This document shows positions 15,100 through 60,230 of a stretch of 60,230 nt of DNA, piece by piece. Position 1 is the stretch's first letter. Every line of letters begins with the position of its first letter. This DNA is from Ectothiorhodospiraceae bacterium WFHF3C12. GTDB taxonomy: Bacteria > Pseudomonadota > Gammaproteobacteria > Nitrococcales > Nitrococcaceae. The DNA lies in contig JACDUA010000020.1 in NCBI GenBank assembly GCA_013519935.1, forward strand, positions 1 through 60,230. The letters are read 5' to 3'. The notes below the pieces were generated by a model that saw only the letters and a list, made by a program, of their open reading frames with translations, searched no databases and was not told where the DNA came from. Made by a program: the position numbers and the translations under genes.

Positions 15100-16176
15100 T
15101 CAACGCCCGGGCCAGCCGAACTGGCGGACCAGCCAGATGGCACCCACCGCCAGGGCGACGCCGTGAATCCACCAAAGCCCGAGCCACAGCGGCACCGTGC
15201 CCTGCTTGACCCACTCCTCCCCGGCGGCCAGGCCGTTGGAGTAGAGCAGGTAGATCAACACCGCCACGAACATGCTCGTGTATCGCACGTCACGGGGACC
15301 GCTGCGGGACAGGGGAACGGCGACGAAGCTCAGCACCAGCAGCATGAGCGGCAACGACACCCGCCACTGCAGCTCCGAGCGCAGAAAGGCCCGGTCCGAG
15401 GCCAGCAGCGCCGCAGTGCGCAGGCCGCCGCGGTCCGCGTCGGGTTCCCGGGCGGGCGGCGCCTCGATGCGGATGCCATGCTCGCGAAAACGCAACTTGC
15501 GCCACTGCCCGGCGCCGGGAACACCCTCGTAGCGGCTGCCTTCGTGCAGGACCAGGTATCGGGCGCCGGTTTCCGGGTCCTGGGTTCGCGTGGCGCGTTC
15601 GGCACGCAGCAGAACGGTCTCGCCGTCGCGTCGCCCCTTGAGGAAGACTCCCTCCATGGTGTGGCCGTCGCCGGCCACGTTCTCCACATAGACCATGCCG
15701 TCTATGCCCTTGGGCTGGAAAAAGCGTCCGGCCTGGACACCCTGCACCAGGAGCAGCGACTCCGCCTGGGCCATGAGCTCGTCGCTGGCGCGCTCTGCCC
15801 ACGGGGCCACGAAAAGCGTCACGCCGGCCACGGCCAGCGTCAGCGGCACGGCCACCAGGAAAACCGCCCGCAGCTGCCGCCCGGGACCGATGCCGCAGGC
15901 GGCCATGGCGGCCATCTCGGAGTCCCGGTAAAACCGGCCCAGGGCCAGCACCGTGGCGAGGAAGAAGCTCGCGGGTATGGTCATACCCAGCTGGGAAAGG
16001 GCCTCGTAACCGAGCAGCTGCAGGATCATCTGCCCCGGCACGTCGCCTTCCGCCGCCTGACCCAGGTAGCGCACGAAGCGATTGGTGAGCAGCACCAGGA
16101 ACAGCACGACGATAACCGCGACCCAGACGGTCAGCACCTCGCGTGCGATATAACGGCTGACAATGGCGGGCCTCAA
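15100..16176 (-). CDS. lptF: LPS export ABC transporter permease LptF
   Basis: Partner permease of LptG in the LPS extractor. The 358 residues begin MRPAIVSRYIAREVL, typical of LptF, followed by VWVAVIVVLFLVLLTNRFVRYL, a conserved second segment GMTIPASFFLATVLALGRFYRDSEM, a periplasmic jellyroll at about 135-260, and a last group of three segments with VSLPLMLLVLSFVAVPLSR. It is divergent from pepA, as in E. coli and Pseudomonas. Confidence 0.96.
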   Translation of the reverse strand: MRPAIVSRYIAREVLTVWVAVIVVLFLVLLTNRFVRYLGQAAEGDVPGQMILQLLGYEALSQLGMTIPASFFLATVLALGRFYRDSEMAAMAACGIGPGRQLRAVFLVAVPLTLAVAGVTLFVAPWAERASDELMAQAESLLLVQGVQAGRFFQPKGIDGMVYVENVAGDGHTMEGVFLKGRRDGETVLLRAERATRTQDPETGARYLVLHEGSRYEGVPGAGQWRKLRFREHGIRIEAPPAREPDADRGGLRTAALLASDRAFLRSELQWRVSLPLMLLVLSFVAVPLSRSGPRDVRYTSMFVAVLIYLLYSNGLAAGEEWVKQGTVPLWLGLWWIHGVALAVGAIWLVRQFGWPGR

Positions 16177-56290: not shown

Positions 56291-56725
56291 ATGTTTTTTG
56301 AGCAGAATCGCGACGAGATGCGTCGCTATTACGTGGAGAGCTGGCGCAAGGCCAGGGCCGGCGAGGCGCTGGAGCCGGTGGAACGGATGATCGCCGACGT
56401 GGTGGCGGACCATCCCGAGTATCACGCCCTGCTGGAGAACGAGGACAAGGCCCTGGGACGGGAATACCTGCCGGAGGACGGCGAAACCAACCCCTTCCTG
56501 CACATGGGGATGCACATCGCGATCCGCGAACAGGTGGCCACCGACCGGCCCCAGGGCGTGCGTCATGTCCACCAGCGCCTGACCGAGCGCCGCGGCAGCG
56601 CCGTGGAGGCCGAGCACGCCATGATCGAGTGCCTCGCCGAGATGCTCTGGCGTGCCCAGCGCGACAATGCCATGCCCGACGAGGCCGGCTACCTGGACTG
56701 CCTCAAGGGTCTGCTGGGGCGATGA
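56291..56725 (+). CDS. DUF1841 family protein
   Basis: A 144-residue soluble protein of the DUF1841 family: FFEQNRDEMRRYYVESWRKA, VADHPEYHALLENEDKALGR, NPFLHMGMHIAIREQVATDRP and AEHAMIECLAEMLWRAQR with conserved His and Glu residues that could bind a metal. Function unknown. I start at the ATG at 56291; the frame continues upstream into the repeat's right arm and those residues (RIHLWLI) are repeat-derived noise. The 3' end overlaps the convergent sulfatase-like gene by 23 bp. Confidence 0.85.
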   Translation: MFFEQNRDEMRRYYVESWRKARAGEALEPVERMIADVVADHPEYHALLENEDKALGREYLPEDGETNPFLHMGMHIAIREQVATDRPQGVRHVHQRLTERRGSAVEAEHAMIECLAEMLWRAQRDNAMPDEAGYLDCLKGLLGR

Positions 56726-58361
56726 GGCCCGGGTTCGGTGAGGCCGCCGCGGCGCGCTTCTCCCCCGGCGATCCCGTCCCGGCCGAGCCGAAAGCGGCGT
56801 GCAGCCAGCCGCGCAGGCGTTCGACCCCTGGCACCCGCGAGACGTCGCCGTCAGCCAGCAACGGCCGGGCCCCCCGGCCGAATCCGCGCTCCAGGAAGGG
56901 CGCAAGCAGGGACGCGTTCCCGGAGATGACGTGAACCGGCACGCCGTGCCCGGCATCCGCGCCGCTGATCATCGGCGCGGCGGGGTGATCCCCCATGAGG
57001 ATCAGCAGATCGTCCCTGCCCAGGTAGGCCTCCGCCCAGGCCGTCACCACCCGCAACGTGTAGTCGAGCGCCCGGGCGTGCTGGACCCGGACACGGTCCA
57101 GGTCCCGCCACAGTTCCTCCGGCGGCTCACCGGCATCCGTCCAGCGCTGGAAGACACTGCCGTCACCCAGCCGGGTCCAGTCGTCGAGCACCGGCAGGAC
57201 GGGCGTCCAGGGCGCGTGACTGCTGATCAGGGCGATCTTGGCGAACACCGGGCGCCCGGCCGGCCGACGTAACGACTGCTGGAAGCGATGGAGGGTGTAC
57301 TGATCCGGCATCGTCACCCAGTTCAGCCGTGGCCCGGCATAACCCAGGTCGTCGGCGGCATGTATGGCGTCGAACCCATAGGCCCGCCCCTCCGGCCACG
57401 CCATGGTGATCGCCGGCATGACCGCCATCGTTCGGTGGCCGGTGGCCCGGAAATCATCCACCAGCGTCGGCTCCCCGCTCGAAAGCAGCAGGCGGTAGCG
57501 GAACTGGTTATCCACCCGGTACCCACTGAGCACGCTGGCGTGCGCCAGCCACGACTGCCCGCCCCGGATGGGCGAGCGCATCACCCCCGAGGCCATTCGC
57601 AGCCCCGCACGGTGGAGCCGCCGTTGCATCTCGCTCAGCGCGGGCTCGAGCCGGTCCCGCCAGGGCTCGCGACGGAGCACACCGGCGCCGTAGGACTCGA
57701 TGAACACCAGGAGGACGTCCCGGCCCGCCAGCTGTCCGAGCGCACGCGTTGCACGCCCCCCTTCGGAGACTGCCCGCTGGAACGCGTCGCGTGCCCGCTG
57801 CGTCTCGATGAGCTGTTCGGCCTGGAAGCTGAGCGTGTCCACCATCGGCGTCCGGGCGAAGGCGAGCGTACGCGGATTCCACAGCTCGGCGGCCAAGGCC
57901 ACGCCCGCGCCGACGAGCATTGCCGTGCCGAGCGTCACCGTGGGCGCGGTGCGGCGTACGACCTGGAGCGCGGCGGCGGCTCTATTCAGCGCGATGAAGG
58001 CCAACACCGGAAGCACCGCGCCCAGGCCAGCCACCACGACCGCGAGGGGCGTATCGAGAACGCCGCTCAGGAGGTTGTAAACGGTGCCCAGCAGCGCTAT
58101 GTCGAGGTAGACGTTGAGCGGCCTTCCGAGCACGTGATGGGTCGCCGCGTTGCTCAGGCCCAGCAGCAGCGAGATCATCACGGCGGCCACCGACAGGTGA
58201 CGCAACCACCGCGCCCAGCCCGACGGCGCCAAAGCGAGCGCGGGCACGAGCAACACGGCCTCCAGTGCCAGCCAGTACGGCCGGAAGGACAGGAACTGCA
58301 ACCACAGCGGCAGGAGCAGCAACAGGTTGGCCACCAGGATTCCAGCCAGGAGCCGCCTCAT
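56703..58361 (-). CDS. Membrane sulfatase-like protein (alkaline phosphatase superfamily)
   Basis: A 552-residue protein with about five N-terminal membrane segments (to about residue 170) and a periplasmic sulfatase/LtaS-like domain. Seen are VLLVFIESYGAGVL (first metal-binding acid), RGGQSWLAHASVLSGY (likely nucleophile Ser/Thr region), ISSHAPWTPVLPVL and LILMGDHPAAP (metal-binding Asp-His). Such proteins transfer or remove phospho-groups on envelope glycans or lipids; the substrate here is unknown. Lies divergent from an FkbM methyltransferase gene, which suggests a surface-polymer role (inference). Confidence 0.82.
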   Translation of the reverse strand: MRRLLAGILVANLLLLLPLWLQFLSFRPYWLALEAVLLVPALALAPSGWARWLRHLSVAAVMISLLLGLSNAATHHVLGRPLNVYLDIALLGTVYNLLSGVLDTPLAVVVAGLGAVLPVLAFIALNRAAAALQVVRRTAPTVTLGTAMLVGAGVALAAELWNPRTLAFARTPMVDTLSFQAEQLIETQRARDAFQRAVSEGGRATRALGQLAGRDVLLVFIESYGAGVLRREPWRDRLEPALSEMQRRLHRAGLRMASGVMRSPIRGGQSWLAHASVLSGYRVDNQFRYRLLLSSGEPTLVDDFRATGHRTMAVMPAITMAWPEGRAYGFDAIHAADDLGYAGPRLNWVTMPDQYTLHRFQQSLRRPAGRPVFAKIALISSHAPWTPVLPVLDDWTRLGDGSVFQRWTDAGEPPEELWRDLDRVRVQHARALDYTLRVVTAWAEAYLGRDDLLILMGDHPAAPMISGADAGHGVPVHVISGNASLLAPFLERGFGRGARPLLADGDVSRVPGVERLRGWLHAAFGSAGTGSPGEKRAAAASPNPGLIAPADP

Positions 58362-58412: not shown

Positions 58413-59174
58413 ATGACCCGCCAGCGCGGCGCCCTCCGGCAGACTTTCGGCCTCGCACGATCCATGCTGATCTACCACCGCCCCGGGCGCCAACGGGGTT
58501 TGCGCCGGCTCTATGCCGGCTTTGTCCGCTCCGGTGACCTGGTTTTCGACATCGGCGCCCACCTGGGTGACCGCACCCTGGCGTTCAGTGGGCTCGGGGC
58601 GCGCGTCGTGGCCCTGGAGCCCCAGCCGCGGCCGTTCAACTGGCTCCGCCGCCTGAGCGGGTACCGGCCCGGCGTGACATTGCTGGCGATGGCGGCCGGC
58701 GCCGCCGAGGGCGAGGCCGAGCTGGCCATCAGCGCCGCCACGCCCACGGTCTCGACGCTGGCCGAAGAGTGGCGAGCCAGCATCGGCGCGCGCAACGCGG
58801 GGTTCCGCAAGGTCCGGTGGGATCACCGGATCAGGGTACCGGTCACCACGCTGGACCGATTGATCGGCGAGTACGGCGAGCCGCGTTTCTGCAAGATCGA
58901 CGTCGAGGGCTACGAGGCGGAGGTGCTTGCCGGGCTCAGCCGGCCACTGGCGGCCTTGTCGGTCGAGTTCGTTGCCGGCGCGCTGCCGGTGGCCGGGCGT
59001 TGTGTGACACGTCTCGCCGAATTGGGCCACTATGAATTCAATGTCGTCGCCGGCGAGGGCCGCCGGTTCCTCTGGAGCGCATGGCACGGACCGGAAGCCG
59101 TCGCGCGATGGCTCGAATCCGGTGCCGGCGGACTGCCATCCGGCGACCTCTATGGCCGCCTCGTGCGCCCGTGA
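58413..59174 (+). CDS. FkbM family methyltransferase
   Basis: A 253-residue SAM-dependent methyltransferase. LVFDIGAHLGDRTLAFSGLG is the SAM-binding motif I, VVALEPQPRPFNWL motif II, and CKIDVEGYEAEVLAGL the FkbM hallmark. These enzymes often O-methylate sugars of surface glycans or natural products. No signal peptide. Starts 51 bp from the divergent sulfatase-like gene. Confidence 0.86.
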   Translation: MTRQRGALRQTFGLARSMLIYHRPGRQRGLRRLYAGFVRSGDLVFDIGAHLGDRTLAFSGLGARVVALEPQPRPFNWLRRLSGYRPGVTLLAMAAGAAEGEAELAISAATPTVSTLAEEWRASIGARNAGFRKVRWDHRIRVPVTTLDRLIGEYGEPRFCKIDVEGYEAEVLAGLSRPLAALSVEFVAGALPVAGRCVTRLAELGHYEFNVVAGEGRRFLWSAWHGPEAVARWLESGAGGLPSGDLYGRLVRP

Positions 59175-59210: not shown

Positions 59211-60029
59211 ATGTCCCTTTCCCTGCCCTGCCGCTGGCAGGACCTGACCAGTGTCGAGACGGGCGTACTGCCCGGCGATACGGTGGCGGCGATGGTGCTG
59301 GGCGCCATCGAACAGCACGGCGCCCACCTGCCCCTGTCCACCGATCTGGACATTGGCGAGGGTCTGCTGGCGGCGGCGCTGGACGGCCTGCCGGACGGGT
59401 TCCCGCTGGTGACGCTGCCGCCTCTGGCGGTCGGCGCAAGCCAAGAGCATGCCAACTTTTGCGGCACGCTTACCCTGCCCCACGAGACCGTTATAACGCT
59501 GCTCGAAGCCTACGGAGCCGCCCTGGCCCGCGCCGGCGTCCTGCGCCTGGTGCTGGTCAACGCACACGGCGGCAACAGCGCCGTGATGGACATCGCGGCA
59601 CTGCGTCTGCGCCACCGCCACGGGATGATCGTGGTCAAATACCACTACCAGCGCTCGCCGCTGCCGGAGGCGGCCACCGTCCTGCCGGAGACCGAGCTGC
59701 GGCACGGCTACCATGGTGGCGCGCTGGAAACGGCCATGATGCGCCACCTGTACCCGGACCGGATCCGCGCGGACCGGCTGGACCACCATCCGTCCAGCGG
59801 CGCCGATCGCGCCGCGGCCGGGAATCGGGTCGGTCCGGAGGCGGAAGGCAATCTCGCCTGGCTGGCCGAGGACCTGAATCCGGCGGGCGTCGTGGGGGAT
59901 GCCCGCCGCGGCACCGCCGAATTGGGCGAGCGGCTGGTCCATCACTACGCCGGCCGGCTGAGCCGGCTGCTCCAGGAGACACGTACAATGCCGCTGCCCG
60001 GACAAGGAAGCACTTCCGCGTCGCCTTGA
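59211..60029 (+). CDS. Creatininase family protein (metal-dependent amidohydrolase)
   Basis: A 272-residue member of the creatininase/MftE/ArfB family. GAIEQHGAHLPLSTDLDIGE supplies metal-binding Glu, His and Asp; VLVNAHGGNSAVMDIA a further His, and GYHGGALETAMM the catalytic/metal Glu. Family members hydrolyse creatinine, process mycofactocin or deformylate the formylaminopyrimidine made by archaeal GTP cyclohydrolases. The neighbouring gene encodes a GTP cyclohydrolase II-like protein, so a deformylase role is an attractive guess. GGAGG-like spacing (GGAGGTTCGATC) before the ATG. Confidence 0.85.
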   Translation: MSLSLPCRWQDLTSVETGVLPGDTVAAMVLGAIEQHGAHLPLSTDLDIGEGLLAAALDGLPDGFPLVTLPPLAVGASQEHANFCGTLTLPHETVITLLEAYGAALARAGVLRLVLVNAHGGNSAVMDIAALRLRHRHGMIVVKYHYQRSPLPEAATVLPETELRHGYHGGALETAMMRHLYPDRIRADRLDHHPSSGADRAAAGNRVGPEAEGNLAWLAEDLNPAGVVGDARRGTAELGERLVHHYAGRLSRLLQETRTMPLPGQGSTSASP

Positions 60030-60034
60030 CCCAG

Positions 60035-60230
60035 TCAATCCCGACTCGAGCGGGTGTCGAGGACTTCGTCCAGCCAGTGGCCCGCCCGTTCCGCCTTGGC
60101 GCTTAGATAGCGGTGATTGTGATCATTCAGGCTGCCGTAAAGGGCCTGGCGGCCCGCAATCTCGACGCCGCCGGCGGCCAGGGCGCGCAGCTTGTCCGGG
60201 TTGTTGGTCAACACCATGGCCTGCCGGACG
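60035..60230 (-). CDS. GTP cyclohydrolase II-like protein, C-terminal end (runs off the right edge)
   Basis: Only the last 65 residues are visible. MVLTNNPDKLRALAAGGVEI and NDHNHRYLSAKAERAGHWL match the C-terminal part of RibA-type GTP cyclohydrolase II (LLTNNPxKxxAL, NxxYLxxKxxxxGH). It may be the riboflavin enzyme or one of the RibA-like paralogues with other roles; the zinc and GTP motifs lie outside. Converges with the creatininase gene with 5 bp between stops. Confidence 0.8.
   Translation of the reverse strand, partial: VRQAMVLTNNPDKLRALAAGGVEIAGRQALYGSLNDHNHRYLSAKAERAGHWLDEVLDTRSSRD

Follow-up and report, generated by a model that had tools for sequence, protein, structure and literature searches.

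In the archaeal riboflavin trunk, reduction precedes deamination. In Streptomyces coelicolor, SCO6650 and SCO6655 presumably lie in one region, and a Met at a switch site reportedly makes SCO6655 stop at the formylated product (a result said to date from Spoonamore 2006). We take this switch site to be the position of E. coli Tyr105 in GTP cyclohydrolase II and, following a rule from the S. coelicolor work, assume that Tyr there marks the complete GTP cyclohydrolase II and Met the early-stopping type. PMC9478397 places the ArfA and ArfB steps in the archaeal riboflavin trunk and describes BrbF (SMc02977) of Sinorhizobium meliloti, a protein annotated as a creatininase that deformylates 2-amino-5-formylamino-6-ribosylamino-4(3H)-pyrimidinone 5'-phosphate; the rhizobial BrbF genes adjoin MarR and CobW genes and serve riboflavin. 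A bacterial creatininase-family formamidase is already published in that paper, and the idea alone is not new. For proteins of the PTPS fold, PMC5041015 gives a CxxxHGH-type motif as the mark of QueD/PTPS enzymes and, on the basis of unpublished evidence, assigns PTPS-IV a role in the synthesis of F420 in archaea. In the accessible portion of the AGeNNT paper (PMC5445326), the label PTPS-IV is attached to an FGPAQ signature, with 561 sequences in that cluster-node, and PF00925 and PF01872 are already noted as PTPS-IV neighbours with no pathway given there.

The window, that is, the whole stretch of DNA analysed (60,230 bases), is an entire contig, C82, of a 4.6-Mb genome, which we take to be gammaproteobacterial, Halomonadaceae being the closest named relatives in the genome_contigs scan. 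The initial annotation had placed a clean creatininase-family gene beside a RibA-type C-terminus at its end, and this was confirmed. The creatininase-family hydrolase, a proposed formamidase of 272 residues, is encoded at 59211..60029 on the plus strand, and on the minus strand 60035..60230 codes for the end of a RibA-like protein (~65 C-terminal residues), a member of the GTP cyclohydrolase II family. The two genes are convergent on opposite strands, and their stop codons are separated by 5 bases as calculated from the gene coordinates. Comparison of contig ends showed that window positions 59385-60230 are identical to positions 16069-16914 of contig C154 (846/846 positions, tail to tail), and the two contigs are read as joining at the creatininase/RibA-like locus. 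This 846-base overlap is unmerged in the assembly, and the creatininase can be double-counted in this genome; an extra match on C154, considered as a second creatininase, is read as the same gene truncated by the overlapping contig end. The remainder of the RibA-like gene and its neighbours, which the initial annotation had proposed to read, lie on C154, where the gene is complete (L006:15128-16264, plus strand, L006 being the C154 region; 378 residues from the chosen ATG at 15128, or 393 if translation begins at L006:15083) and is situated inside a conserved cluster that is not a rib operon. On the other side of the creatininase gene are an FkbM-family methyltransferase (58413..59174, plus strand; TIGR01444, 89.6 bits with a cut-off of 37.7) and a membrane protein (56703..58361, minus strand) with a weak match to sulfatases of the alkaline-phosphatase superfamily (PF00884, 23.7 bits, under the cut-off of 25). 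The FkbM gene adjoins the creatininase gene in nine of the ten Halomonadaceae loci described below, L018 having no FkbM gene. The sulfatase-like membrane protein recurs at the cluster edge; it has a homologue in 7 of these ten loci (a set that includes short loci) and also in certain plasmid clusters.

The creatininase-family protein belongs to the superfamily, with 195.9 bits against a PF02633 cut-off of 31.3, and contains the motifs EQHGAHLPLSTD, NAHGGN, and HGGALETA. It falls below the cut-offs of the equivalog models for creatininase proper (TIGR04448, 65.2 bits, cut-off 235), MftE (TIGR03964, 99.8 bits, cut-off 172), and ArfB (NF033501, 18.8 bits, cut-off 180). When aligned to the solved creatininases 1q3k and 3a6e, it keeps the EQHG motif, the next Asp, and the His of N.H..N, and a Gly replaces their Glu; we take these aligned positions to be those with metal-ligand roles. 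The MarR and CobW neighbours of BrbF, a rhizobial trait and no requirement elsewhere, are not found at this locus, and a pattern test for a CobW-type P-loop, tried as a way to pick out a true BrbF, beside the creatininases of loci L130-L159 and L209-L228 (flanks of ~1.5 to 3.5 kb) gave none. In a quick tree of creatininases, in which 75 of 89 rows were kept after duplicate removal, the gammaproteobacterial cluster proteins fall with creatininases that are not cluster-linked and come from other classes, and the Streptomyces cluster proteins, which share 29-34% identity with them over the matched part, stand apart. A single clade of the Streptomyces and gammaproteobacterial creatininases was not rejected (p-AU 0.285; 69 rows, six long branches left out), and independent recruitment in the two groups is not claimed.

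The full RibA-like protein matches PF00925 with 177.7 bits, and the GTP cyclohydrolase II cysteine cluster CLTGD...CDCG is present in the alignment. The NCBIfam model NF001591 was passed (223 versus 148), and the score for TIGR00505 was under its cut-off (187.8 versus 205.85). An N-terminal extension of ~170 residues, represented by an alignment of cluster members, matched a small RibB alignment in a profile-profile comparison (probability 87.6%, E 3.5e-6). The DDEDRENEG motif of RibB was not seen in the aligned stretch, and the extension therefore reads as a decayed RibB domain. The switch residue is Tyr in 25/25 canonical RibA and in 44/44 proteobacterial cluster RibA-like proteins, including the one studied here, which accordingly does not carry the Met of the early-stopping SCO6655 type; 12 of these 44 proteins come from loci without a creatininase. 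Met was found in both (2/2) of the Streptomyces cluster RibA proteins. The Streptomyces version of the cluster fits a split pathway well, and the gammaproteobacterial version fits only through cluster homology and the behaviour of the gene pair, which is the main weakness of our best explanation. The Glu of HSEC and the Arg of RQEGR are both kept in 25/25 canonical RibA and both lost in 44/44 proteobacterial cluster proteins. These changes (HS[AS]C and [ADN]QEGR) were considered as a mark of early stopping and dropped, since RibA-like proteins outside the cluster region are also changed (L186, L200, L201, L206, and L207, with L206 ~15 kb from its own cluster on the same contig). Two genomes of the same order (G014 and G010) contain a second RibA-like copy with an HSAC motif away from the cluster (L200 and L201).

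The initial annotation would have abandoned the link if the RibA-like gene were part of a complete rib operon, and such a setting is contradicted by the rest of the genome, which holds two further PF00925 genes. On contig C114, ribD (deaminase and reductase), a riboflavin-synthase-like gene identified by eye, and ribBA lie in a row, and contig C93 encodes a standard RibA carrying all motifs. In the RibBA beside RibD (L008:8055-9176), the RibB half is intact, and the RibA half, although above the Pfam cut-off, lacks the HSEC and CDC motifs. With an intact RibB and a RibA without the zinc-cysteine motifs, this RibBA mirrors the cluster RibA-like protein, whose RibB half appears to have decayed. 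C154 and the window were both without an FMN riboswitch reaching the Rfam gathering score.

The neighbours of the RibA-like gene on C154 comprise a YceI-family gene at the cluster edge (L006:8315-8974), a CDP-alcohol phosphatidyltransferase (L006:8961-9680, minus strand), a dehydrogenase (L006:9788-10762, plus), a PTPS-fold protein (L006:10918-11316, plus), a GT4 glycosyltransferase (L006:11313-12416, plus), a methyltransferase (L006:12413-13312, plus), an LPG_synthase_TM flippase-like membrane protein (from L006:13309, plus), and a RibD_C reductase (L006:14230-15051, minus; PF01872, 121.2 bits). The methyltransferase had no Pfam or NCBIfam match and takes its name from homologues annotated on plasmids. 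Successive stops and starts overlap by four bases from the PTPS gene through the LPG_TM gene. Among the neighbours named by Pfam or NCBIfam matches, there is no riboflavin synthase, lumazine synthase, or deaminase, nor the DUF1688 protein or uracil phosphoribosyltransferase that the initial annotation had suggested looking for. A YceI gene is also present at the cluster edge in 21/33 gammaproteobacterial genome loci, and the annotated genes of the Thiodictyon, Peteryoungia, and Agrobacterium clusters include cytochrome b; together these hint at a membrane redox link.

The RibD_C protein consists of the reductase domain only, in place of the deaminase and reductase of RibD; a pattern test found the deaminase motif in 0/62 cluster RibD_C open reading frames, and the score against the archaeal reductase model was 89.6 versus a cut-off of 186.45. 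In genome G333, where the fetched region contains no RibA-like gene, the creatininase gene ends in an ATGA overlap with the start of RibD_C, and in G435 the two genes are co-directional. These arrangements are a more direct link between the creatininase and the pyrimidine stage than is its proximity to the RibA-like gene. For the PTPS-fold protein, SCO6650 (PDB ID 3d7j) was the sole PDB match at E 0.001, aligning over the full length with E 1.9e-49. FGPAQ followed by HGA is present in 72/73 cluster PTPS-fold proteins, with FGSAQ and HGA in the remaining one. The protein lacks the CxxxHGH-type motif and scores 42.8 bits for TIGR03367 (cut-off 89.25), which separates it from the QueD/PTPS enzymes, and the FGPAQ signature together with the full-length match assigns it to the PTPS-IV/SCO6650 subfamily.

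The gene neighbourhood is real, and the cluster is widely conserved in bacteria. Scanning genome_contigs with the RibA-like protein as query, a choice that itself determined what was found, gave ten loci, all Halomonadaceae by title, with the gene order dehydrogenase, PTPS, GT4, methyltransferase, LPG_TM, reductase, RibA-like, and creatininase in 10/10. On plasmids, a PTPS match at E 1e-5 occurs in 22 of 72,556 records, two of them archaeal with ~33% identity. Fourteen of the 22 were examined, and the core cluster genes were found on plasmids of Actinomycetota and of other Pseudomonadota. Two Streptomyces plasmid clusters hold the dehydrogenase, PTPS, GT4, methyltransferase, LPG_TM, creatininase, and RibA genes. 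Two other Streptomyces plasmids among the 14 (L022 and L027) carry the PTPS gene, that of L022 being the FGSAQ type, without the rest of the cluster and with MEKHLA-domain and cupin genes nearby. Among whole genomes, a PTPS gene at E 1e-15 is present in 23/54 of the same order and 27/398 sampled across the phylum, this genome being included in both counts. A set of 73 loci, picked by the RibA-like (10) or the PTPS match and in some cases truncated by contig ends, so that the counts are not natural frequencies, contained the PTPS gene in 73, the dehydrogenase in 71, GT4 in 68, the methyltransferase in 67, the reductase in 62, the CDP-alcohol transferase in 52, LPG_TM in 48, RibA-like in 46, the creatininase in 36, FkbM in 26, YceI in 22, and the sulfatase-like protein in 18. 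No description of the whole cluster was recognised in a search of the open-licence PMC library.

Conservation of the pair was followed in a family of 151 genomes (f15), taken as Halomonadaceae on the basis of the tree, where its proteins lie among those of named Halomonadaceae, with E limits of 1e-90 for the RibA-like protein, 1e-50 for the creatininase, and 1e-20 for PTPS. The PTPS gene was found in 91/151 genomes and the RibA-like and creatininase genes in 79 each. Among the 91 PTPS carriers, 78 have both genes, 11 have neither, one has the RibA-like gene only (G579), and one the creatininase only (G435); at the same limits, neither gene was found in any genome without a PTPS gene. In G579, from an assembly that is 93% complete, a cluster-type creatininase is present but broken by a frameshift into two reading frames. 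Each of the 78 pairs is convergent and lies on a single contig (74 of them within 400 bases; median gap of 84.5 bases between matches), which makes the adjacency more than chance. The pair is thereby conserved well beyond this genome, in 78 genomes of the family and at other loci, and the initial view that the convergent layout weakens the link no longer stands, the layout being itself conserved. Across loci with both genes, 32/34 are convergent, the other two being the divergent Streptomyces loci. Among 34 gammaproteobacterial PTPS carriers, 8 of which are also in the f15 set, 25 have both genes (in G010, G047, and G139 the pair is on another contig and was scored present), 7 have neither, one has the RibA-like gene with only a different type of creatininase (G005), and one the creatininase only (again G435). 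The 7 carriers without the pair have two PF00925 genes each genome-wide; six are without PF02633 and G099 has one of another type. All 7 retain the RibD_C reductase, as expected if a housekeeping RibA can feed the same reductase. Outside the class, in 15 carriers for which ~20 kb was fetched, 7 have the RibA-like gene only, one the creatininase only (G333), and 7 neither, at least 2 of the last group (G434 and G244) having a RibA-like gene farther off. A PF02633 gene is present elsewhere in six of the seven genomes with the RibA-like gene only; G393 has none. Fisher tests gave p values of 1.2e-5 for the 34 gammaproteobacterial genomes and 3e-12 for the 91 f15 carriers, both of which ignore kinship and linkage. 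The joint absence of the two genes may reflect linkage, as one deletion can remove adjacent genes. A phylogenetically independent co-loss was considered and not retained, with two independent pairs on well-supported branches and a sign test that was not significant. Strong as it is, the co-occurrence is confounded by both kinship and adjacency.

We tentatively read the pair, from its sequence families and gene context, as an optional module for GTP entry in a conserved biosynthetic cluster distinct from riboflavin synthesis. The module would open GTP in a split fashion, and we assign this reading a probability of roughly 0.48. As expected from its family, the RibA-like protein would open the imidazole ring of GTP. 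The creatininase-family enzyme would then take off the formyl group to give 2,5-diamino-6-ribosylamino-4(3H)-pyrimidinone 5'-phosphate, and the RibD_C reductase, with no deaminase half, would turn the ribosyl into a ribityl chain, the three steps being a bacterial counterpart of archaeal ArfA-ArfB-ArfC. If no deaminase acts, the 2-amino group would be retained and the product would be pterin-like, not flavin-like. The PTPS-fold protein, dehydrogenase, GT4, and methyltransferase might then yield a glycosylated pterin- or pyrimidine-derived compound, and the flippase-like protein, CDP-alcohol transferase, and sulfatase-like membrane protein may point to a product that is membrane-bound or exported. 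The ascription of PTPS-IV to F420 would mean a different product from the one proposed here. The split pyrimidine/pterin pathway of the initial annotation is thus supported in part: the pair is conserved, it does not lie in a rib operon, and the RibD_C and PTPS-fold neighbours appear to fit such a route, while the Tyr retained at the switch and the outside-class carriers with the RibA-like gene and no nearby creatininase speak against it.

These same observations are expected if the RibA-like protein carries out the complete GTP cyclohydrolase II reaction and feeds the cluster unaided, the creatininase instead hydrolysing an amide, formamide, or lactam that arises later in that pathway, an explanation that we consider possible although doubtful. 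It would account for Tyr in all 44 proteobacterial cluster proteins, for the 7/15 carriers outside the class and G393 with no PF02633 gene at all, and for G333 and G435, where the creatininase is beside RibD_C and there is no RibA-like gene. However, it leaves the gammaproteobacterial co-occurrence of creatininase and RibA-like genes unexplained, unless this is due to physical linkage, and it does not agree with the two Streptomyces plasmid clusters, in which a Met-type RibA is paired with a creatininase.

A creatininase-family formamidase serving riboflavin synthesis in S. meliloti, as described in PMC9478397, and the RibD_C family of the cluster reductase would both suit a spare or special-purpose riboflavin module, like the second riboflavin branch of BrbF. 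We regard such a module as improbable, as rib genes and a further RibA are present elsewhere in the genome, neither C154 nor the window has an FMN riboswitch at the gathering score, and the surrounding genes encode PTPS-fold, GT4, methyltransferase, and flippase-like proteins, with no riboflavin synthase, lumazine synthase, or deaminase among the named neighbours. That the two genes are chance neighbours with no common pathway would be compatible with their opposite strands and the lack of a single operon, but is very hard to reconcile with convergent adjacency in every f15 genome that has both genes and with the adjacency in two Streptomyces plasmids.

Under the preferred reading of a GTP-entry module, a function would be obtained for the large orphan FGPAQ-type PTPS subfamily, a member structure of which (3d7j) was deposited as an uncharacterized protein, and the archaeal order of early riboflavin chemistry would be used by bacteria for a non-riboflavin product. 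The cluster is common in Halomonas and its relatives, which would then be practical organisms in which to seek that product. In its widest form, the proposal would be that bacteria of at least two phyla possess an undescribed ArfA-ArfB-ArfC-like trunk of RibA-like, creatininase-family, and RibD_C proteins, feeding an enzyme of the PTPS fold that lacks the usual zinc motif and leading to a new class of glycosylated, methylated, and possibly lipid-linked or exported pterin-like molecule; taken as a whole, this is unlikely.

Compared with the described systems, the cluster resembles the PTPS-IV neighbourhood of AGeNNT in the FGPAQ signature and the PF00925 and PF01872 neighbours, and differs in its creatininase, none being named in the available text of that paper ('creatinin' occurs 0 times), where PF00925 is called FolE2 (PMC5445326). 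Unlike the BrbF genes, the creatininase gene here adjoins FkbM and RibA-like genes near a PTPS cluster, the two being compared by their gene neighbours. The PTPS-fold protein matches SCO6650 of the S. coelicolor SCO6650/SCO6655 pair over its whole length. The Streptomyces plasmid clusters encode a short RibA with a switch Met, and its gene diverges from that of the creatininase, whereas the RibA-like protein studied here carries a RibB-like N-terminus that appears decayed and a switch Tyr, and its gene converges on the creatininase gene. The first enzyme belongs to the GTP cyclohydrolase II family in contrast to the ArfA of the archaeal trunk, and the hydrolase and reductase score below the archaeal cut-offs, but the proposed order of reactions, with ring opening, deformylation, and reduction before deamination, would be identical to that of ArfA-ArfB-ArfC.
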